This document shows positions 4,569 through 20,592 of a DNA stretch of 23,241 bases, in pieces (position 1 is the stretch's first letter; each line of letters starts with the position of its first letter). The notes under the pieces are model-generated. The model saw only the letters and a program-made list of their open reading frames with translations. It was not told the DNA's origin and searched no databases. This DNA is from a virus: the IMG/VR virus record IMGVR_UViG_3300046656_000201, positions 1 through 23,241 of that record; one strand, given 5' to 3'. The position numbers and the translations under genes are program-made.

Positions 4569-4898
4569 ATGAGCACCGTGAACGCCGTCGTCTGGATGAC
4601 GCCGAAGGAGATCGCGGCGGTCGAGGCCTTGGCCGACGTCGACAACCGGGACTTCTCGTCCTGGATGCGGAACGCCGTCCTCCTCTGGTTCAACCTCCGT
4701 CCGAAGACCCGTCCGCCCACCCCCAAGTCGAAGGACGTCCGGACGATCAAGAGGTTCCGGATCTCGAAGTTCGAGAAGAAGGGCCTCAAGTGGGCCGCAG
4801 GCCTCCACGACCTCACCCTCTCGAACTGGATTCGCAACGTCGCGGTCTCGACCATCCTCAACTCGCCGAAGAGACGCGCGGCCTCTTCCCGTGCCTGA
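4569..4898 (+). CDS. Duplicated ribbon-helix-helix-like DNA-binding protein
   Basis: 109 residues. Two similar units are visible: residues 7-41 (VVWMTPKEIAAVEAL...FSSWMRNAVLLWF) and 63-97 (FRISKFEKKGLKWAA...LSNWIRNVAVSTI). Each looks like a beta strand followed by two helices ending in the S(S/N)W(M/I)RNAV-type second helix typical of CopG/Arc/MobC ribbon-helix-helix proteins. Ribbon-helix-helix domains normally work as dimers, so one chain with two units would be a built-in dimer. It is the first rightward gene, next to palindromic sites, and is a natural candidate for the regulator that binds them; that link is inference. The ATG has no clear Shine-Dalgarno. Confidence 0.65.
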   Translation: MSTVNAVVWMTPKEIAAVEALADVDNRDFSSWMRNAVLLWFNLRPKTRPPTPKSKDVRTIKRFRISKFEKKGLKWAAGLHDLTLSNWIRNVAVSTILNSPKRRAASSRA

Positions 4899-5403
4899 AA
4901 TCCAACCCGACGCCCTCGTCCCCATCGACAGCGTCCGCCCTCACCCGGACAACGCCCGCGTCCACCCGCCCGAGAACATCGAGTCCATCAAGGTGTCCCT
5001 GTCCCGCTTCGGACAGATCACGCCCATCGTGATCGACGGCGAGGGGCGCATCCTGAAGGGGAACGGGACGTGGATCGCGGCGCGCGCCTTGGGGTGGCGC
5101 GAGATCCAGGCGCGCCGGATCGTCTTCTCCTCCCCCGAGGACTACACGCTGTACCGCCTCGCGGACAACCGGACGGGGGATCTGTCGCACGACGACGATG
5201 AAGTCGTCCTCGCGCAGTTGCGCCCCTTCCTGGAACAGAAGCTCGACGTCGCGGGCCTCGGGTGGTCGCAGGAGAAGATCGAGGAGATGACGGCGAACGC
5301 CCATCCCCCGGACTTCGCGCCCGGGTCCGCCCTCGATCAGTCGCCCCTCGACGTCCGTCCCGCCGTGAAGTGCCCGTCCTGCGGCCACGAGTTCCACCCG
5401 TGA
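4891..5403 (+). CDS. ParB/Srx-like domain protein
   Basis: 170 residues starting at GTG 4891, overlapping the previous gene by eight bases. The ParB N-terminal fold is evident: VRPHPDNAR (residues 15-23), SLSRFGQITPIVID (36-49), GNGTWIAARALGW (58-69, the position of the GHxRxxAAxxLG signature) and ADNRTGD (91-97). There is no ParB helix-turn-helix domain, so this is a short phage ParB-like protein, not a segregation ParB. Such domains include CTP-binding switches and nucleases. The C-terminus carries CPSCGHEF (161-168), half a zinc site. The gene overlaps the Mom-like gene by four bases (GTGA), so the two are coupled and probably work in the same DNA-modification process. Confidence 0.8.
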   Translation: MPEIQPDALVPIDSVRPHPDNARVHPPENIESIKVSLSRFGQITPIVIDGEGRILKGNGTWIAARALGWREIQARRIVFSSPEDYTLYRLADNRTGDLSHDDDEVVLAQLRPFLEQKLDVAGLGWSQEKIEEMTANAHPPDFAPGSALDQSPLDVRPAVKCPSCGHEFHP

Positions 5404-6089
5404 CCCTGCGCCTCGACTGGTGCACGCACGAGGCGGCGCGGTACGCCGTCCTGCATTGGCACTACTCGAGGCGGATGCCCCACTCGAAACTCGTGAAGGT
5501 CGGGGCGTGGGAGGACGACAAGTTCATCGGGGCCGTCGTCTTCGGACTCGGCGCAACCCCGCATCTCTGCCGCCCTTACGGTCTCACGATCCTCCAGACG
5601 TGCGAGCTCCTCCGTGTCGCGTTGACGAAGCACAAGGCCCCGGTGACGCGGATCGTCGCCATCGCCCTCCGGATGATCCACAAGCTCTGTCCCGGCCTGC
5701 GCCTCTGCATCTCGTTCGCGGACCCCGCAGAGGGGCACGTCGGGGGGATCTACCAGGGGGGCAACTGGATCTACACGGGACGCTCCCACGACTCGACGTT
5801 GTACTGGTATCGTGGGCGGTGGGCGCACGGACGCGCCGTGTCGTTGGCCGTGAAGTCGACCGGGATCGACCGGAAGACCTTGTGCCCGAGGAGGAAGATC
5901 GTGCCCGGGAAACACCGCTACATCCTGCCTTTCGACGACGAGACGCGGGCGAACGTCCGCAAGTTCTCGCTCCCGTACCCCAAGCGCGCGGATGGTGTAA
6001 AGGCCAGCACGCCGGACGTCCAGTCCGGAGGAGGCGGTTCAAACCCGACCTCCGCGCTCCAGGGGGGAGGCACAAATGGCGGCGCGTGA
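5400..6089 (+). CDS. mom: Mom-like DNA adenine-modification acyltransferase
   Basis: 229 residues from GTG 5400, overlapping the ParB-like stop by four bases. The sequence is recognisable as the Mu Mom family (GNAT fold): CTHEAARYAVLHWHYSR (residues 9-24), KLVKVGAWEDDKFIGAVVFG (30-49), CELLRVALTKH (69-79), VTRIVAIALRMIHKLCPGLRL (82-102) and SFADPAEGHVGGIYQGGNW (105-123). In phage Mu, Mom converts selected DNA adenines to the N6-glycinamide (carbamoylmethyl) form, protecting phage DNA from host restriction; the donor has been unclear. The tail after about residue 195 (SGGGGSNPTSAL) is unlike an enzyme domain: it is the translation of a tRNA-shaped sequence (5986-6061). The catalytic fold therefore probably ends near residue 195. 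Enzymatic activity is inferred from family. Confidence 0.85.
   Translation: MTLRLDWCTHEAARYAVLHWHYSRRMPHSKLVKVGAWEDDKFIGAVVFGLGATPHLCRPYGLTILQTCELLRVALTKHKAPVTRIVAIALRMIHKLCPGLRLCISFADPAEGHVGGIYQGGNWIYTGRSHDSTLYWYRGRWAHGRAVSLAVKSTGIDRKTLCPRRKIVPGKHRYILPFDDETRANVRKFSLPYPKRADGVKASTPDVQSGGGGSNPTSALQGGGTNGGA
5986..6061 (+). tRNA. tRNA-Gly(UCC)-like sequence inside the mom gene
   Basis: The 76 nt fold as a whole tRNA. The acceptor stem is GCGCGGA/TCCGCGC (5986-5992 with 6051-6057, 7 of 7 pairs). The D stem is GTGT/GCAC with loop AAAGGCCA containing the conserved GG. The anticodon stem is CCGGA/TCCGG (6012-6016 with 6024-6028, 5 of 5). The loop CGTCCAG has anticodon TCC at 6019-6021. The T stem is GGCGG/CCG-CC with one bulged A at 6048, and the loop is the canonical TTCAAAC. 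The discriminator is T6058, followed by an encoded CCA. U73, C35, C36, G1:C72, C2:G71 and G3:C70 match bacterial glycine identity. Oddities are G instead of U33 and the bulged T stem. It lies wholly within the mom frame, and the terminase Shine-Dalgarno begins at the next base. Confidence 0.75.
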
Positions 6090-6711
6090 AGAGTGGGATC
6101 GGATGGAAGGCGAAGGTCCGCGCCACTTTAAGAACTTCAACGTCTACCTCCTCCTCACCCCCGAGACCCGATCCGTCCTAGAATCCTGGAGGGTCTCGTC
6201 GGGCCAGAAGGAGGCCACGGATTGCCCCGGACATTGGAAGCGGATGGCGGCGAAGTTCCGGTGGAGGGAGAGGGGCGAGAAGTACGACGACATGATCCTC
6301 GCGAAGATGCGCCGTCTCCTGGAGGCGAAGCGTCTCCAGATGCGCGAGCGACATATGAAGATCGGCGAGTTCATGGAGCGCGTCGGGGTGCAATCCCTGT
6401 CGAAGACGGACCCCGTCACGAAGGAACGAATCCCCGTCGAGGTCAACGATCCCGGACTGGCGTCGGAGATCGCGGAGAGGGGGGTCAAGATCGCGCGTCT
6501 CGCGGCGGGCGAGTCGACGGAGAACATCTCGCAGAAGTCCAAGGTCGAGAACGTCCCGCCCGGTACTCTCGACAAGCCGTCCGCAGAGAACGCGGACCTC
6601 TCGCATCTCACCGAGGCACAACTTGACGACCTCGAAAAAATTCTCCGACCTCGGCCCCGTCCCGACGTGGAACGAAGTGAGGGCGGAACAGGCGAGACGA
6701 AGCCTTCGTAA
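6076..6711 (+). CDS. terS: Probable terminase small subunit
   Basis: 211 residues from ATG 6076, with a strong GGGGGGAGG site at 6062-6070 immediately after the tRNA-like CCA end. The assignment rests mainly on position directly before the large terminase. The content is helical and basic: residues 50-105 include WKRMAAKFRWRERGEKYDD and a long Arg/Lys/Met helix. The C-terminal third is polar (SHLTEAQLDDLEKIL), like the oligomerisation or large-subunit-binding tails of small terminases. No clear helix-turn-helix can be pointed to. It overlaps the large-subunit gene by 89 bases if that gene starts at TTG 6623. Confidence 0.6.
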   Translation: MAAREEWDRMEGEGPRHFKNFNVYLLLTPETRSVLESWRVSSGQKEATDCPGHWKRMAAKFRWRERGEKYDDMILAKMRRLLEAKRLQMRERHMKIGEFMERVGVQSLSKTDPVTKERIPVEVNDPGLASEIAERGVKIARLAAGESTENISQKSKVENVPPGTLDKPSAENADLSHLTEAQLDDLEKILRPRPRPDVERSEGGTGETKPS

Positions 6712-14322: not shown

Positions 14323-14567
14323 GCACGAACGCGAAGAACGCGGAGGAATTCGCGAGGGAGATCCTCGCCGCCTTCGAGTCGATGTCCGACGCGCCCGGCG
14401 TTCAAGACGTGATTCCTCTCCTGCGGGACTCGGTGAAGCGGATCGAGAAGTACGGGATCTGTCCGTTCGCGGAATACTCGTGGGAGAACAAGGCGAGCGG
14501 ATCTCTCCAGGATTTGATCGACGGGTTCGGAGGGCGTGAAGCGATCCGCAGATTGTTGCCCGTATGA
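14319..14567 (+). CDS. Hypothetical helical protein, 82 aa
   Basis: ATG at 14319 in a four-base overlap with the GT9-like stop. The product is mostly helical and acidic in its first half (NAEEFAREILAAFESM, VIPLLRDSVKRIEKYG), with a C-terminal helix GGREAIRRLLPV. No motif is recognised. The precise start/stop overlaps on both sides support a real gene. Confidence 0.65.
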   Translation: MSTNAKNAEEFAREILAAFESMSDAPGVQDVIPLLRDSVKRIEKYGICPFAEYSWENKASGSLQDLIDGFGGREAIRRLLPV

Positions 14568-14695
14568 GCCGTCGCCTGCGAGACGTACAACGCAAGCGCA
14601 GGATCAGGAAACGGGCGCGTCGATTCAAGTTCTGGAGGATGCGTTTCGGGTTCGGGATCTGCCTTCCTTACGGAGCGATCAAGGTGAATTCATGA
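14564..14695 (+). CDS. Tiny Arg-rich basic peptide, 43 aa
   Basis: ATG 14564 overlaps the preceding stop by four bases, and its TGA overlaps the next ATG by four bases, the same coupling as throughout the cassette, which is the main support. The peptide has about 14 Arg/Lys in its first 25 residues (SRRLRDVQRKRRIRKRARR), then a short hydrophobic end (FGFGICLPYG). It could bind RNA, DNA or acidic membrane surfaces. The frame may instead simply be a translational bridge between genes. Confidence 0.5.
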   Translation: MSRRLRDVQRKRRIRKRARRFKFWRMRFGFGICLPYGAIKVNS

Positions 14696-15450
14696 AGACC
14701 GCCGTCGTCGTCACGACGTACAACCGTCCCGCGTGCCTCGCACGGTCGCTCCCGTACATCATGATCGCGGCGCGAAAGGTGAATGCGCCCGTCCTTGTGA
14801 TCGACGATGGATCTCCGGATGCTTCGGACTACGCGAGGGAAGGCGCGTCGATCTACGGCGCGAGTTTCATCGGTCTCCCCTGGAATCGCGGTCTCGCCGG
14901 GGCGATGAACATCGGTCTATCGTTCTTCCTCGCAGACCCGGAGATCGAGGCGATCCACTACTTCCAGGACGACGTCGAAGTCGACCCTCTCGCGCTCGCG
15001 GCGATCAACGATGTCCTCGCGCAAGTCGGGGACTTCTGCGTCACCGGACACGACGCGAAGGAACATCACGCGAAGCCGCATTCTCCGATCTGCGATTCGC
15101 CCTTCGGTCCGATCTGCGGGATCATGACGCGCCTCCGTCCTTCGTGCCGCGCGACCCAGATGTCCGCGCTTCGTTCGGCATGGACGAAGGTGATGCCGAT
15201 CCGCTCGAAGGGTCTCGGTCTTCCGAAGCGTGTCCCCCGCGCGCCGAACGATCCGGAACAGAGGGGCGAGGGGTCCTCCGTCGACTGGTGGATCGTGCGG
15301 GACGCGCCTCGCCGTCTCGACACGATCTGCATCCCTGGACTCGTGCGGTCGTTCTCGCACAAGGCAGAGGATTCGACGTGGGGCAATCCGCAAATCGCGG
15401 GCGAGGACGGACCTCTCCACCGCGAGGCGATCAAAGGATGGGTGAAATAA
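14692..15450 (+). CDS. GT2-family glycosyltransferase (GT-A fold)
   Basis: 252 residues from ATG 14692. Classic GT2 features are present: VVVTTYNRP at the N-terminus (residues 5-13), VLVIDDGSPDAS (34-45, nucleotide-sugar Asp pair), GLPWNRGLAGAMNIGL (61-76) and YFQDDVEVDP (90-99) supplying the metal-binding DxD-type acidic residues. It is shorter than many GT2 enzymes but has a complete GT-A core. A C-terminal region with W-W-DAP residues probably shapes the acceptor site. It uses an activated sugar to extend a glycan. No membrane segment is present, so it acts in the cytoplasm. Confidence 0.82.
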   Translation: MKTAVVVTTYNRPACLARSLPYIMIAARKVNAPVLVIDDGSPDASDYAREGASIYGASFIGLPWNRGLAGAMNIGLSFFLADPEIEAIHYFQDDVEVDPLALAAINDVLAQVGDFCVTGHDAKEHHAKPHSPICDSPFGPICGIMTRLRPSCRATQMSALRSAWTKVMPIRSKGLGLPKRVPRAPNDPEQRGEGSSVDWWIVRDAPRRLDTICIPGLVRSFSHKAEDSTWGNPQIAGEDGPLHREAIKGWVK

Positions 15451-15755
15451 TGGGACAGGCAAAACAGAGAAAGCTCGCAGGGACCTATCCCGTCCAGGAC
15501 GGGACGCGCCCGATGACGGACGCGAGGAAGTCCGGAAAGTGGAACCCGTCGTGTCGGAAATGCCACGGGACGGGCGTCGTCTCCTATTACGTCGAAGGCA
15601 CGGAGACGAAGAAGGTCGCGTGTTCCTGCGAGTTCAAACAACTCACTCCAGCGGAAAAAAAGGGCGTCGACGAACAGAGGAACATCGACGACATCCGCGC
15701 GGCGGTGGACATCGGGGTCGCCCACGCGCAGTTCGACGCGGAGAAGAAGTCGTGA
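15450..15755 (+). CDS. Small zinc-knuckle protein (CxxCHGTG)
   Basis: 101 residues. The ATG at 15450 shares its A with the preceding TAA. A basic start (MGQAKQRKLAG) leads to SCRKCHGTGVV (34-44), the repeat unit of DnaJ-type zinc domains, and a second pair Cys58-x-Cys60. Only one such unit is present, so a single zinc site is likely and this is not a full DnaJ. A charged helix follows. The role is unknown; it may be an adaptor for neighbouring enzymes. Confidence 0.7.
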   Translation: MGQAKQRKLAGTYPVQDGTRPMTDARKSGKWNPSCRKCHGTGVVSYYVEGTETKKVACSCEFKQLTPAEKKGVDEQRNIDDIRAAVDIGVAHAQFDAEKKS

Positions 15756-16324
15756 ACGGCGCGCGCCAACTCGCGCGGGACTTCATCGCACCCCTCATGA
15801 TCAACGGGACGCGCGTCCTCGACGTCTGTTGCGGGGATCGATGGGTCGAGAAGGAATTCACAAAGATCCTCGGGAACAGCGGGCATTACGAGGGCATGGA
15901 CAAGAAGGATCACGACGACCTGACAATCGAATTCGAGAAGTGGCCTACCTCGATCACCGATTGCGACACGACCGGAGACGACGAGGATGGTTGGGATCTC
16001 ATCCTCTCGATCTACGGCCTCCAGCATCTCCTCGCGGAAGAGGCGCGCGTCTGGACTCTCCTCCGCAGGATCGCGAGGCCGACGACGCGGTTCGCCTACG
16101 TCGGACGTCCCGCCCTCATGTCGTGGCGCGAGATGGATCGACAGGACCCATTGAACGCATACAGCCAAGCCGGGTTCCGAGGTCTCGCCCTCGCCTCCGG
16201 GTGGTCCGTCCTGTCGTGGCGCGAGTTCCTCTACTCGTCGGACGGGTACGATGAGGCGAAGGACCTTCACGTCACGAACGGAAACCCCAACGCCTTCGCC
16301 GCCCTCATGGAGCCTCTCGAATGA
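15752..16324 (+). CDS. SAM-dependent methyltransferase-like protein
   Basis: 190 residues from GTG 15752, coupled by a four-base overlap. RVLDVCCGDRW (21-31) is the SAM-binding motif I, with Cys residues where Gly is more usual. GMDKKDHDDL (48-57) is at the acidic end of strand 2, and WDLILSIYGLQHL (81-93) is at motif IV with the helix after it, as in small class I methyltransferases. The target is unknown; the cassette context suggests a sugar or glycan. The replaced glycines lower certainty that it is an active methyltransferase. Confidence 0.65.
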   Translation: MNGARQLARDFIAPLMINGTRVLDVCCGDRWVEKEFTKILGNSGHYEGMDKKDHDDLTIEFEKWPTSITDCDTTGDDEDGWDLILSIYGLQHLLAEEARVWTLLRRIARPTTRFAYVGRPALMSWREMDRQDPLNAYSQAGFRGLALASGWSVLSWREFLYSSDGYDEAKDLHVTNGNPNAFAALMEPLE

Positions 16325-16926
16325 AGATCCAGCATCTCGGAACGGACTACGGAGGGTGGTGGATCGACGTGGATCTTCTTCCCGAGGAGGGCGTGATCAT
16401 CGACGCGGGGGTGGGGACGGACATGACCTTCACCGAGGCCCTCCACGAATTGAAGCCCGGAATCCGCGCCGTCCTGATCGATCACACCGACGAGTCCGCT
16501 GAATACGTCCTGAAACACCGCGCGCATCCGTGGGTGACGTTCATCAAGTCCGCGCTCATCACGTCGAGGCACGAGGGCGCGGTCGAGATCTTCCGTCACA
16601 AGACGGCGGGCTCGGAGTCGGTCTACAACGACCACAACTTCGTCAACCCCGAGAATTCCTACACCGTTCCGGGCGTGCATCTCGGAGATCTCGTCCGGGA
16701 GCACAAACCTTTCCTCGTGAAGCTCGACATCGAGGGAGCGGAATACGGCGTCATCCGCGAATGTCTCGGCGTGCCTCAAGTCTGCGTCGAGTTCCACCAT
16801 CGGATGATGAAGAGGTTCACGGAGGCAGACACGAACGCGGCGATCCAGTTCTTCCTTGACCACGGATACCGCCTCGCCCATCGCACTCCGACCGACGAGG
16901 TCCTCCTCATCCTGGAGAGAACATGA
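16321..16926 (+). CDS. FkbM-family methyltransferase
   Basis: 201 residues in four-base overlaps on both sides. The hallmark FLVKLDIEGAEYGVI (131-145) is the FkbM signature; VIIDAGVGTDMTFTEAL (25-41) is the SAM-binding motif I region. FkbM-type enzymes O-methylate sugars or small glycans (the name comes from FK506 biosynthesis) and are common in phage and bacterial polysaccharide loci. Here it would methylate a sugar made or transferred by neighbouring enzymes. Confidence 0.85.
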   Translation: MKIQHLGTDYGGWWIDVDLLPEEGVIIDAGVGTDMTFTEALHELKPGIRAVLIDHTDESAEYVLKHRAHPWVTFIKSALITSRHEGAVEIFRHKTAGSESVYNDHNFVNPENSYTVPGVHLGDLVREHKPFLVKLDIEGAEYGVIRECLGVPQVCVEFHHRMMKRFTEADTNAAIQFFLDHGYRLAHRTPTDEVLLILERT

Positions 16927-17495
16927 GCATCGTCCACGACCTGCGTCTCCTGGAGATCGACGGCTGGATGGAGGAGGACGAGCTCGAGTTCCTTCACGCC
17001 ATGGCGTCCGCGTGCACCACGGGGATCGAGATCGGCGCGTTCAAGGGGCGGTCGACGTGCGCCCTCGCTCACGCCCTAAAGGACAAGAAGGACGCGCGCC
17101 TCTCCGTGATCGACACCTTCGAGGGGACGGGGACGTCGCGCGAGGCAGAGTTCAAGGGCCACCCGGAACGTCTCTTCCGGGAATTCATGGAGAACCTCGG
17201 GGAACGAGATCTCGCGGGGGTCGTGATCCCCTTCCTCGGATCGTCCGGGGATCGCGTCCTCGTGAACCACTTCGAGGACGCCTCGGTCGACTTCCTGTTC
17301 ATCGACGGATCGCACGACAGGGAATCCGTGACGCGGGATCTCGCCCTCTGGACGCCCAAGGTGAAGAAGGGCGGCGTCCTCTGCGGACACGATTACCACG
17401 AGACGTGGCCCTCCGTCGTCGAGGCCGTCGACGAGTTCTTCGTGGGCGCGAAGGTCGAGAACCCCGTGGGCGGGATCTGGAAGGTCACCAGATGA
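16923..17495 (+). CDS. Class I methyltransferase (Methyltransf_24/TylF-like)
   Basis: 190 residues from ATG 16923 (four-base overlap, GGAGAG upstream). IEIGAFKGRST (35-45) is motif I of the Methyltransf_24 group, SVIDTFEGTG (61-70) closes the second strand, and FLFIDGSHDRESVTRDL (124-140) is the metal-binding/catalytic segment seen in macrocin O-methyltransferase-like proteins. GGVLCGHDY with its His-Asp pair follows. It probably methylates a hydroxyl of a sugar. It is the third methyltransferase in a row, suggesting a polymethylated glycan. Confidence 0.8.
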   Translation: MSIVHDLRLLEIDGWMEEDELEFLHAMASACTTGIEIGAFKGRSTCALAHALKDKKDARLSVIDTFEGTGTSREAEFKGHPERLFREFMENLGERDLAGVVIPFLGSSGDRVLVNHFEDASVDFLFIDGSHDRESVTRDLALWTPKVKKGGVLCGHDYHETWPSVVEAVDEFFVGAKVENPVGGIWKVTR

Positions 17496-17797
17496 AGGAC
17501 GCATGGACATTGAAACCCGGGTCGAGGAACTGGAATCTCCGCGCGAGTTACTCGATGAAGCGCACGAAGACGAAGACGGTCCACGTCCTGTTCGTCCTGA
17601 AGACGGTCTGGATGACACCGAAGGATGCCGCCGCTCTTGTGAAGGAAACGCCCTACGCCTTCATTCTCACGGCAGAGGACGAGGCGCAGTTGAAAGAGAA
17701 CGAACGCAGGACGCGGGAACTCTGTCGTCACGTCAAGGCGGCGGCGGAAGCGTGGAAGCGAATGGACTCGCGGGTCCTCCTGGGGCTACTCAAATGA
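17492..17797 (+). CDS. Hypothetical protein, 101 aa
   Basis: The ATG overlaps the preceding stop and the TGA overlaps the next start, each by four bases. A basic N-terminus (SMKRTKTKT) is followed by a hydrophobic strand VHVLFVLKTVW and a helix MTPKDAAALVKE. A charged, probably coiled helix covers residues 60-92. The piece VWMTPKDAAAL resembles VWMTPKEIAAV in the ribbon-helix-helix protein at 4569, so a shared DNA-binding fold is possible but weakly supported. Confidence 0.65.
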   Translation: MKDAWTLKPGSRNWNLRASYSMKRTKTKTVHVLFVLKTVWMTPKDAAALVKETPYAFILTAEDEAQLKENERRTRELCRHVKAAAEAWKRMDSRVLLGLLK

Positions 17798-18510
17798 GAT
17801 TCGTGATCCGCGTCGACGACTTCGGATGGACGGGAGACGGAGATCCCGAGAACGCGCCGATCAAGCGCGTCGACCGTGGGTTCGTCCTCGCGAAGAAGTT
17901 TCACGACGCGATGCAGGGCGTCCCGTACCTCGCGGGCGTGATCCCGTCGACCGCAGATCCCGAGGCCGTCTCCTGGATCGAATCGAAACCCGCAGGGATG
18001 TCCGTCGCGCTCCACGGGTGGAACCACCAGATGCGGGAAGGGGCGCGAAACGAATTCGAGGGGATGGGCGAGGAGGGATGTCGCGCCCTCTTCTCCTCGG
18101 GGATGAAGAGGATCGGGACGACGCGCCACCTGATCCCGCCCTTCAACGCGATCACGGAGCCGATGGTCCGCGCCGCGTGGCACGAGGGCATCCGCTTCAT
18201 TTGGGGCGCGCCGTCGAACTGGAACACCCCGCCGTCTCCATACGAAATGGAGAAGGGCGTCGTCTTCGTCCCGTCCTGGAAGCCCCTCTACGGCGCGTGC
18301 GGGTGGGGACAGACGCCGGGAGATCGCGCCCTCTGGCAAGCGATGGCGGAACTCGGGAACGGACACGGGATCGCGGTCGTGACCCTGCATCTCCCTTGGG
18401 AGGTCGCGCGAGATCCGGAATTCAAATGGGTCCGCTACGTCGTCGAAACTCAACGCCGCTGGATCATGTCACCGGAGGAATTCGCCGATGCTCTACCATC
18501 TCGTCTCTAG
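17794..18510 (+). CDS. Polysaccharide-deacetylase-like (CE4/NodB-type) protein
   Basis: 238 residues from ATG 17794. RVDDFGW (6-12) gives the catalytic base and metal-binding Asp pair, ALHGWNHQM (72-80) the metal-binding HxxxH, IPPFNAI (114-120) the Arg/Pro loop region, and TLHLPWE (197-203) the last catalytic His. This order matches the NodB/CE4 superfamily, closest in style to DUF2334-type deacetylases. CE4 enzymes remove acetyl groups from N-acetylated sugars, for example in peptidoglycan or surface glycans. There is no signal peptide, so it acts inside the cell on a precursor. Length is that of one catalytic domain. Confidence 0.75.
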   Translation: MRFVIRVDDFGWTGDGDPENAPIKRVDRGFVLAKKFHDAMQGVPYLAGVIPSTADPEAVSWIESKPAGMSVALHGWNHQMREGARNEFEGMGEEGCRALFSSGMKRIGTTRHLIPPFNAITEPMVRAAWHEGIRFIWGAPSNWNTPPSPYEMEKGVVFVPSWKPLYGACGWGQTPGDRALWQAMAELGNGHGIAVVTLHLPWEVARDPEFKWVRYVVETQRRWIMSPEEFADALPSRL

Positions 18511-19369
18511 GACGTGGGCGCAGGGAGGACGGACGGGCGTCCCTCGGTTCGACTACTACATCGGGAAGGCGTTCCCGGATCTCGTCTCGATCACCCCGCA
18601 GGACAAGATCGCCCTGTCGTCCGAGGACGTCGTGATCACGGACAACCACCTCGGACTCGAGGTTCCCGAGGACGTCCCCTGCGTCGTGGTTCACCACGGG
18701 TGCGCGCCTTATCACTACCACGTCGATCCCGTCTGGAGGAACGACGAGACCCTTCGGATGGCGGCGGATCAGAGGCGCGTCCTGAAGAGGCCGAACACCG
18801 TCTTCGTCGCGCCGTCCGCGTGGGTGATGAAGGAATTCTCGAAACTCGCGGACGAGTCGTATCCGTCGCGCGCCTTCTTCATTCCCCATTGGGTCCCGGA
18901 GATCCCCGCAGGCGCGGACGGTCCTCGGATCTGGCGCGGGCCGCGCGTGATCGGGGACTGGAGGACTCAGAACAAGGGGTCGGAGATCTGGCCCTTCCTC
19001 GCGTCCTCGATGCCCGACTTCGAGTTCGCCCCCCTGAAATACGATGAGAACTCGGAGGAGGCGCGCCGCCAGTTCTACCGGAACGCGGACGTCTACCTCT
19101 GCCTCTCGCTTTCGGAGGGGTGCCCTTACTCCGTCCTGGACGCGGAGGCCGCGTCCCTTCATATCGTGACAACCGAGACCGGATCGTGTCACGAGCTCGC
19201 GCAGGGGGGCGCGATCATGATCAGGGATCGGAACGACGTCGCCGAGATCCAGAAGGCGATCACGCAGGCGAGTCTCCGCACGATGCGCCGCGTCAATATG
19301 TTCCGGTCCTTCCACTTCGCGAGTTGGCGCGCGGCGTGGGAGGACGTCATCGCCAAGGCGCGGAAATGA
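18488..19369 (+). CDS. GT-B (GT4-type) glycosyltransferase
   Basis: 293 residues from ATG 18488, 23 bases inside the previous gene; the GGAGGAATT ribosome site is within that gene's end. The C-terminal domain shows FIPHWVPEI (131-139), DVYLCLSLSEGCPYSVLDAEA (201-221), the E-G-P...E donor-phosphate motif of GT4-like enzymes, and TTETGSCHELAQGGAIMI. The N-terminal half contains VVVHHGCAPYHYHVDP. It is shorter than typical GT4 enzymes (350-400) but has both lobes. It transfers a sugar from a nucleotide donor, presumably in the same glycan pathway. Confidence 0.78.
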   Translation: MLYHLVSRTWAQGGRTGVPRFDYYIGKAFPDLVSITPQDKIALSSEDVVITDNHLGLEVPEDVPCVVVHHGCAPYHYHVDPVWRNDETLRMAADQRRVLKRPNTVFVAPSAWVMKEFSKLADESYPSRAFFIPHWVPEIPAGADGPRIWRGPRVIGDWRTQNKGSEIWPFLASSMPDFEFAPLKYDENSEEARRQFYRNADVYLCLSLSEGCPYSVLDAEAASLHIVTTETGSCHELAQGGAIMIRDRNDVAEIQKAITQASLRTMRRVNMFRSFHFASWRAAWEDVIAKARK

Positions 19370-20247: not shown

Positions 20248-20592
20248 ATGGAAGCCTCGGATCTGAAAAACCTTCGCCCCACGGACGACAACGTCCTCGT
20301 CAAGTTGCGCGAGGCCCCGAAGAAGGTCGGGCGGATCATCCTCCCCGACGTCGCCAAGGACAAAAAGCAACAGGTCGCCGACGTGATCGCGGTCGGCCCC
20401 GGGAAGTGGTATCTCCACGAGAACGGGAACTGCAAGCGCGCGCCGATGCAGGTCTCGCCGAAGGACGTCGTGATCTGCGGACCCTACGCGGGCGCGGCGG
20501 TCGTCATCGACGGCACGCCCTATCGACTCATCCACGAGGACCAGATCCTCATGATCATCGACGATCCGGACCTCGTGAAGGTCCCCGCGTGA
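20248..20592 (+). CDS. Phage co-chaperonin, GroES/Cpn10-like
   Basis: 114 residues from ATG 20248 with AAAGGGG upstream. LRPTDDNVLVKLREAPKKVGRIILPD (9-34) matches the Cpn10 opening (xPLxDRVxV...TxGGIILP). VADVIAVGPGKW (43-54) is the conserved AxVxAVGPG strand, VSPKDVVICGPYAGAAVVIDG (68-88) matches the GDxVxFxxYaGxEVxxdG segment, and YRLIHEDQILMII (91-103) is the end strand. Co-chaperonins cap GroEL; phage versions such as T4 gp31 enlarge the folding chamber for the capsid protein. Here it sits between the glycan cassette and the Mu F-like head gene, consistent with capsid folding. The mobile loop is intact-looking. Confidence 0.88.
   Translation: MEASDLKNLRPTDDNVLVKLREAPKKVGRIILPDVAKDKKQQVADVIAVGPGKWYLHENGNCKRAPMQVSPKDVVICGPYAGAAVVIDGTPYRLIHEDQILMIIDDPDLVKVPA

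Follow-up and report, generated by a model that had tools for sequence, protein, structure and literature searches.

The data show that in many phages the DNA-modification gene mom is accompanied by a conserved glycine-tRNA-like RNA, a complete copy of which lies at the 3' end of mom in the window (the whole 23,241 nt stretch of viral DNA analysed here). The element belongs to a conserved RNA family and is not a chance resemblance, and what is conserved is the RNA and its linkage to mom, not a peptide. Its fold, conservation, glycine identity and linkage to mom are observed directly, as is the absence of a CoA-binding motif from the Mom protein. We consider it likely that the element is a dedicated glycyl-tRNA, sidelined from translation, that acts as donor for Mom; its charging and the transfer of glycine are inferred. 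With somewhat less assurance, we also propose that Mom-type modification is aminoacyl-tRNA dependent and that in many phages the glycine placed in DNA comes from a glycyl-tRNA of their own, often encoded within the gene for the enzyme.

Table 1. Features of the mom region of the window
Feature	Position	Strand	Evidence
tRNA-Gly-like RNA element (mom-tRNA) with encoded CCA	5986..6061	+	ARAGORN; Rfam 30.1 bits; model R1 73.8 bits, E 1e-15
Acceptor stem, 5' strand GCGCGGA (partner TCCGCGC, 6051-6057)	5986..5992	+	Sequence
D arm: 4-bp stem, GG in loop	5995..6010	+	Sequence; stem covaries in relatives
Anticodon arm: 5-bp stem, 7-nt loop CGUCCAG	6012..6028	+	ARAGORN anticodon; stem covariation
Anticodon UCC	6019-6021	+	ARAGORN
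Position 33, G	6018	+	Sequence
T arm GGCGG-TTCAAAC-CCG(A)CC, bulged A at 6048	6033..6050	+	Sequence
U73 discriminator (6058) and encoded CCA (6059-6061)	6058..6061	+	Sequence
mom gene; Mom domain at residues 3-195; RNA element lies within the 3' end of the frame	5400..6089	+	PF25680 1.8e-41; phrog_1384 5e-51
ParB-like gene, directly upstream and overlapping the mom start	4891..5403	+	phrog_620 1.5e-31
Terminase small subunit; begins within the 3' end of the mom frame	6076..6711	+	phrog_6299 9.5e-6

The coordinates of the element and its neighbours are given in Table 1. ARAGORN calls a tRNA-Gly(tcc) at 5984-6061 on the plus strand, the sole tRNA that it calls in the window, and the Rfam tRNA model matches 5986-6057 just above its gathering cut-off of 29 bits. 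The window sequence is one of the 40 training rows of the relative-derived model R1, whose score is also listed. The original prediction had described a tRNA with acceptor, D, anticodon and T arms, a UCC anticodon, U73 and an encoded CCA, with G in place of U33 and a T stem interrupted by a bulged A, all inside the mom frame. Each of these features is present, and the tRNA models do not score the element as background. All seven acceptor pairs form, including G1-C72, C2-G71 and G3-C70, and the cloverleaf expected of a bacterial tRNA-Gly (7-bp acceptor stem with D, anticodon and T arms) is complete. Two features expected of an elongator tRNA are missing, namely U33 and the unbroken 5-bp T stem for EF-Tu binding. 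The whole element lies within the open frame, and a purine-rich stretch directly follows the CCA, ahead of the terminase start. The surroundings of the element gave neither a promoter nor a terminator signal. Folded alone as a single sequence, it stands out only moderately from shuffled sequences, 5 of 200 of which do as well (z -2.0). This is weak evidence; the case against chance is a comparative one that rests on covariation.

The protein encoded by the surrounding frame matches the Mom family PF25680 with 142.5 bits against a cut-off of 27.1, its AlphaFold model has a pLDDT of 95, and its best PDB match is phage Mu Mom (8bv8, E 1e-12). A profile match over the cut-off and a Mom fold are what we require of a Mom enzyme; the window gene has both, and its product is inferred. 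The Mom domain stops well inside the frame (Table 1), so the element sits 3' of the folded enzyme. ParB-like genes adjoin mom not only in the window but also in phages of Arthrobacter (Wyborn), Microbacterium, Enterococcus (phiEf11) and Psychrobacter (Y8A), and the ParB-like neighbour may act together with Mom, as its partner or to give it specificity. Elsewhere in this short phage contig there is a GroES/Cpn10 co-chaperonin gene (20248-20592; PF00166 1.6e-17) and a cluster of glycosyltransferases and FkbM/TylF-type methyltransferases (14536-19369).

In relatives collected purely by similarity to the Mom protein, a similar element directly follows a C-terminal PYPK motif. Because the Rfam tRNA model scores near or under its cut-off in these relatives, a dedicated covariance model (R1) was built from 40 elements. 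It detects the element in 39 of 40 listed loci, nearly all of which were fetched by Mom similarity; the one that it misses (L001) keeps, by eye, the acceptor stem and UCC. Nearly every Mom relative examined in viral contigs has the element. Among further Mom-similarity loci, two (L036 and L054) do not have it, and in L058 the model misses a tRNA-like element that is visible by eye. The parser behind our first covariation alignment (A1) demanded acceptor and anticodon pairing, so that the counts for these two stems are partly circular. We used instead the less selected set of 38 distinct elements found through the Mom protein (A2), an alignment fitted to the model and thus somewhat in its favour. 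Standard pairs occupy 97.8% of the paired cells in A2, double changes are seen in 17 of the 21 pairs, and 195 cells carry a double change; shuffles give 47 (0/500) and slid controls 26-41. Acceptor pairs 1 and 2 are invariant and pair 3 nearly so, while pairs 4-7 covary. The T stem also covaries while its bulged A persists (35/38); for this frequency only elements found through the protein were counted, because elements found by motif were selected for a bulged T arm. Some family members have no D arm. ARAGORN detects few of the elements, and standard tRNA searches mostly miss them. The compensatory changes whose absence from related genes would have refuted the original prediction are strong in all stems.

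The linkage to mom was also measured from the RNA. The 18-nt T-arm motif GGCGGTGCRANTCCGACC, used alone to scan viral contigs, gave at least 120 loci, and among the matches listed 111 of 120 encode Mom on the same strand. Searched with a canonical T arm, viral contigs gave 120 loci, none of which encodes Mom (0/120; Fisher 5e-58). This broader control was substituted for a stricter canonical one that gave 6 loci only. When genomes are scanned, the motif has many chance matches in GC-rich DNA and Mom is found at 20 of 119; Mom above its family cut-off is rare, and each of two sampled phyla has it in only 5-6 of 399 genomes. Taking all 137 elements together, 131 have Mom on the same strand, and strand agreement is complete where Mom is present (131/131). 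The element lies inside the frame after the Mom domain in 79 cases, straddles the stop codon in 16, and is downstream of mom in 7 and upstream in 29. That the element is built into the mom gene, as had been proposed, is true of the window but is one arrangement among several. Overlapping elements occur in all three frames relative to the Mom codons (49/29/11), and on this ground conservation as a peptide is rejected. The upstream and downstream placements fall largely into separate Mom clades on a deep tree, and the linkage, whether after, inside or upstream of mom, persists across these deep clades; the distant Mom subfamilies are true Mom by Pfam. Three viral contigs (L105, L152 and L185) have tandem duplicate mom genes.

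The bacterial glycine identity set consists of U73, G1-C72, C2-G71, G3-C70, C35 and C36 (PMC9976931, Table 1). The window element meets it in full, and the fit of its acceptor and anticodon residues, pointed out in the original prediction, extends to the relatives. In 131 distinct elements, G1-C72 and C2-G71 are invariant (131/131 each), with G3-C70 in 124 and U73 in 127; C35 and C36 are each present in all 103 elements with a 7-nt anticodon loop. The anticodons are exclusively those for glycine. Charging with glycine is itself an inference from these residues. The product of Mu Mom is an adenine glycinamide, according to the title of Swinton 1983 as cited in PMC3874153. The glycine identity of the element matches this product and so fits a role as donor.

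The position and identity of the element could also be read in terms of regulation. It might stay in the mom mRNA as a tRNA mimic that binds glycyl-tRNA synthetase or senses Gly-tRNA and thereby controls a toxic gene, and some synthetase operators do act as such mimics. Consistent with this, the element lies in or beside the mom message and on its strand wherever Mom is present, and the synthetase contacts are kept. Additionally, mom of Mu is toxic when overexpressed and is tightly controlled (PMC4461284). However, the encoded CCA (90 of 137 elements), the near-invariant U73 and the complete acceptor stem suit charging more than binding alone, and placement upstream, inside or at the 3' end of mom is unlike the single geometry of an operator. 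The mimic also leaves the match between amino acid and modification unexplained, and we regard it as unlikely, though not to be disregarded. We think it quite improbable that the RNA guides or activates Mom, or competes for the host glycyl-tRNA synthetase, without donating any glycine to DNA. Such a role is compatible with linkage and identity being observed and transfer not, but it too fails to explain why a glycine identity should go with a glycinamide product.

In contrast to the near-invariant glycine identity, the features used in decoding are relaxed, as judged from the aligned sequences. U33 is present in 42 of 103 elements, with G, A, C or U occurring at this position, and A34 is present in 38 of 103. 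Ordinary tRNAs of control phage contigs have U33 in 508 of 561 cases, and their tRNA-Gly in 24 of 25. The G33 of the window had been put forward as a residue that relatives might conserve; it is not conserved, and U33 is merely not required. Elements upstream of mom keep U33 in 11 of 13 cases and its loss is concentrated in frame-overlapping elements, suggesting that coding overlap may explain part of the loss. These data bear on whether the element is an ordinary phage tRNA-Gly that supplements phage translation. It shares with such genes the cloverleaf, a GCG acceptor start, U73 and an NCC glycine anticodon, and some members, as in the Arthrobacter phages L064 and L065, have U33 and a canonical T loop. 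It differs from them in its bulged T stem, relaxed positions 33 and 34 (U33 is absent in 61/103), variable or missing D arm, embedding in coding frames and fixed linkage to mom, which canonical tRNAs lack, and in being mostly missed by ARAGORN. We therefore give a translational role very little weight. tRNA genes are frequent integration sites of phages and can then be recognized by partial tRNA copies. A copied integration site or a decaying tRNA captured by recombination would fit this general habit, but this explanation, left open by the original prediction, can scarcely be credited, as it is contradicted by covariation of the whole cloverleaf, by the constant location on the mom strand, by the adjacency to mom and not to an integrase as such a site would require (the window neighbours are the ParB-like and terminase genes), and by a tandem pair of elements in Psychrobacter phage Y8A.

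The enzyme itself gives evidence on both sides of the donor hypothesis. In one published view, Mom uses an acyl-CoA such as glycyl-CoA, and donor proposals have centred on acyl-CoA (PMC7824862). The pyrophosphate-binding motif expected of a CoA-dependent GNAT (R/Q-x-x-G-x-G/A) was found in the motif-A region of none of 30 Mom proteins. A structure search, on the other hand, ranks CoA-using GNATs and not Fem-type transferases next after Mu Mom, which counts against the element being the donor. All 30 proteins have Ser or Thr at the residue that aligns with Ser124, which is inactivated in 8bv8; this match is inferred, because it presumes a 10-residue start offset that we take to apply to the structure.

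In the mechanism that we propose, the element would be co-transcribed with mom and then excised, with RNase P cutting at the 5' end, trimming at the 3' end, and addition of CCA where this is not encoded. The host glycyl-tRNA synthetase would charge the element, whose full identity set is retained. The T-stem bulge, which lies beside the 51-63 pair (an EF-Tu site), together with the frequent loss of U33 and the altered D and T loops, may exclude it from the ribosome. Mom, with a GNAT fold and no CoA pyrophosphate-binding motif, would move the glycyl group from the element to N6 of adenine. The first product would be N6-glycyl-adenine, an isomer of the known Mu product. From this, a Smiles-type shift through a five-membered ring, in which the free glycyl amine attacks C6, would lead to the glycinamide N6-(carbamoylmethyl)adenine. 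A private donor would avoid competition with ribosomes. Processing, charging, exclusion from EF-Tu, transfer and rearrangement are all inferred, and there are no RNA, charging or enzyme data.

Glycine tRNA variants that serve a non-ribosomal aminoacyl transferase have a precedent in Staphylococcus, where non-proteinogenic tRNA-Gly is used with FemXAB to build the pentaglycine bridge. The Staphylococcus isoacceptors bind EF-Tu weakly and may supply cell-wall glycine, and their escape from EF-Tu is proposed to result from a weakened T stem and an altered D loop (PMC4052509). The element has a T-stem bulge and loss of U33, and the Staphylococcus-type replacement of GG at positions 18-19 is not met, as the window D loop keeps GG. 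The Staphylococcus tRNAs are host genes with peptidoglycan as acceptor, whereas the element is a phage gene tied to or inside the enzyme gene and its proposed acceptor is DNA. The tRNA-like structures of plant RNA viruses are also charged tRNA mimics, but they are located at the 3' terminus of the genomic RNA; the Rfam Tymo_tRNA-like model scores 19.4 bits on one relative, under its cut-off of 40, and there is no sequence relation.

Not all Mom phages have the element. Model R1 finds none genome-wide in Mu or in 12 other cultured Mom phages: Enterococcus phiEf11, Pseudomonas JD024 and PAN70, Aeromonas pAEv1818, Acinetobacter JeffCo, Listeria LP-114, Bacillus Riggi, Roseobacter CRP-902, Staphylococcus Alsa_1, Microbacterium Lupine, Proteus pPM01 and Exiguobacterium vB_EauM-23. 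This suggests that some Mom enzymes work without the element or with host Gly-tRNA. The Mu enzyme has the same family and fold as the window Mom and yields the glycinamide, and host Gly-tRNA would have to serve it if the mechanism is common to both. Microbacterium phage Pickles13, also without the element, has an ordinary tRNA-Gly(CCC), 33 nt after mom (L066, 2154-2228). No other tRNA and no other minus-strand gene is annotated in this phage, mom being on the other strand, and the tRNA may be an alternative answer to one and the same need. Cultured phages that do have the element include Salinibacter B2_17, where it is annotated as tRNA-Gly, and the Arthrobacter phages with U33 and a canonical T loop. 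In Psychrobacter phage vB_PmaS_Y8A, the paper on which reports no tRNA genes, two different elements without D arms follow mom in tandem, ahead of the terminase gene (L437, 2162-2299).

In bacterial genomes, the element lies within the 1.5-kb flanks of 8 of 17 Mom matches, and several of these 8 come from genomes already known to carry it. In the Bacillota bin MAS3, an element adjoins each of the four Mom genes of the genome (L449, L452, L453 and L454); elements that had seemed to be mom-less orphans in this bin are partly due to truncation of the loci. In Bacillota bin YP3, a metagenome bin that may be incomplete, no Mom was found for two well-formed elements (L208 and L218), which may be orphan copies or reflect incomplete assembly. 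The Mom phages without the element, its presence at only 8 of 17 bacterial Mom loci and the retention of U33 in upstream elements count, with the structure search, against the donor reading. Taken together, the glycine identity and the linkage to mom support the proposal of the original prediction that the element is a dedicated glycine donor for Mom, but the element is not universally needed and its role remains inferred.

No published link between Mom and tRNA was found in a literature search with little coverage of subscription journals and preprints, and the phage-encoded RNA family appears to be unreported. The study behind PDB 8bv8 lay outside this search, and prior knowledge of the Mom donor cannot be excluded.

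To our knowledge, the donor of the glycinamide group of Mu Mom is unsettled, and the mom-linked glycine-tRNA family points to a specific donor. If the element does act in this way, it would be the first RNA-borne donor for a DNA base modification that we know of, and it would fill the place of the missing donor of Mu Mom. DNA hypermodification would then be joined to aminoacyl-tRNA chemistry, a tRNA gene would be seen to lie in the reading frame of the very enzyme that it serves, and the element could be used to recognize phages with this anti-restriction modification from their genomes.
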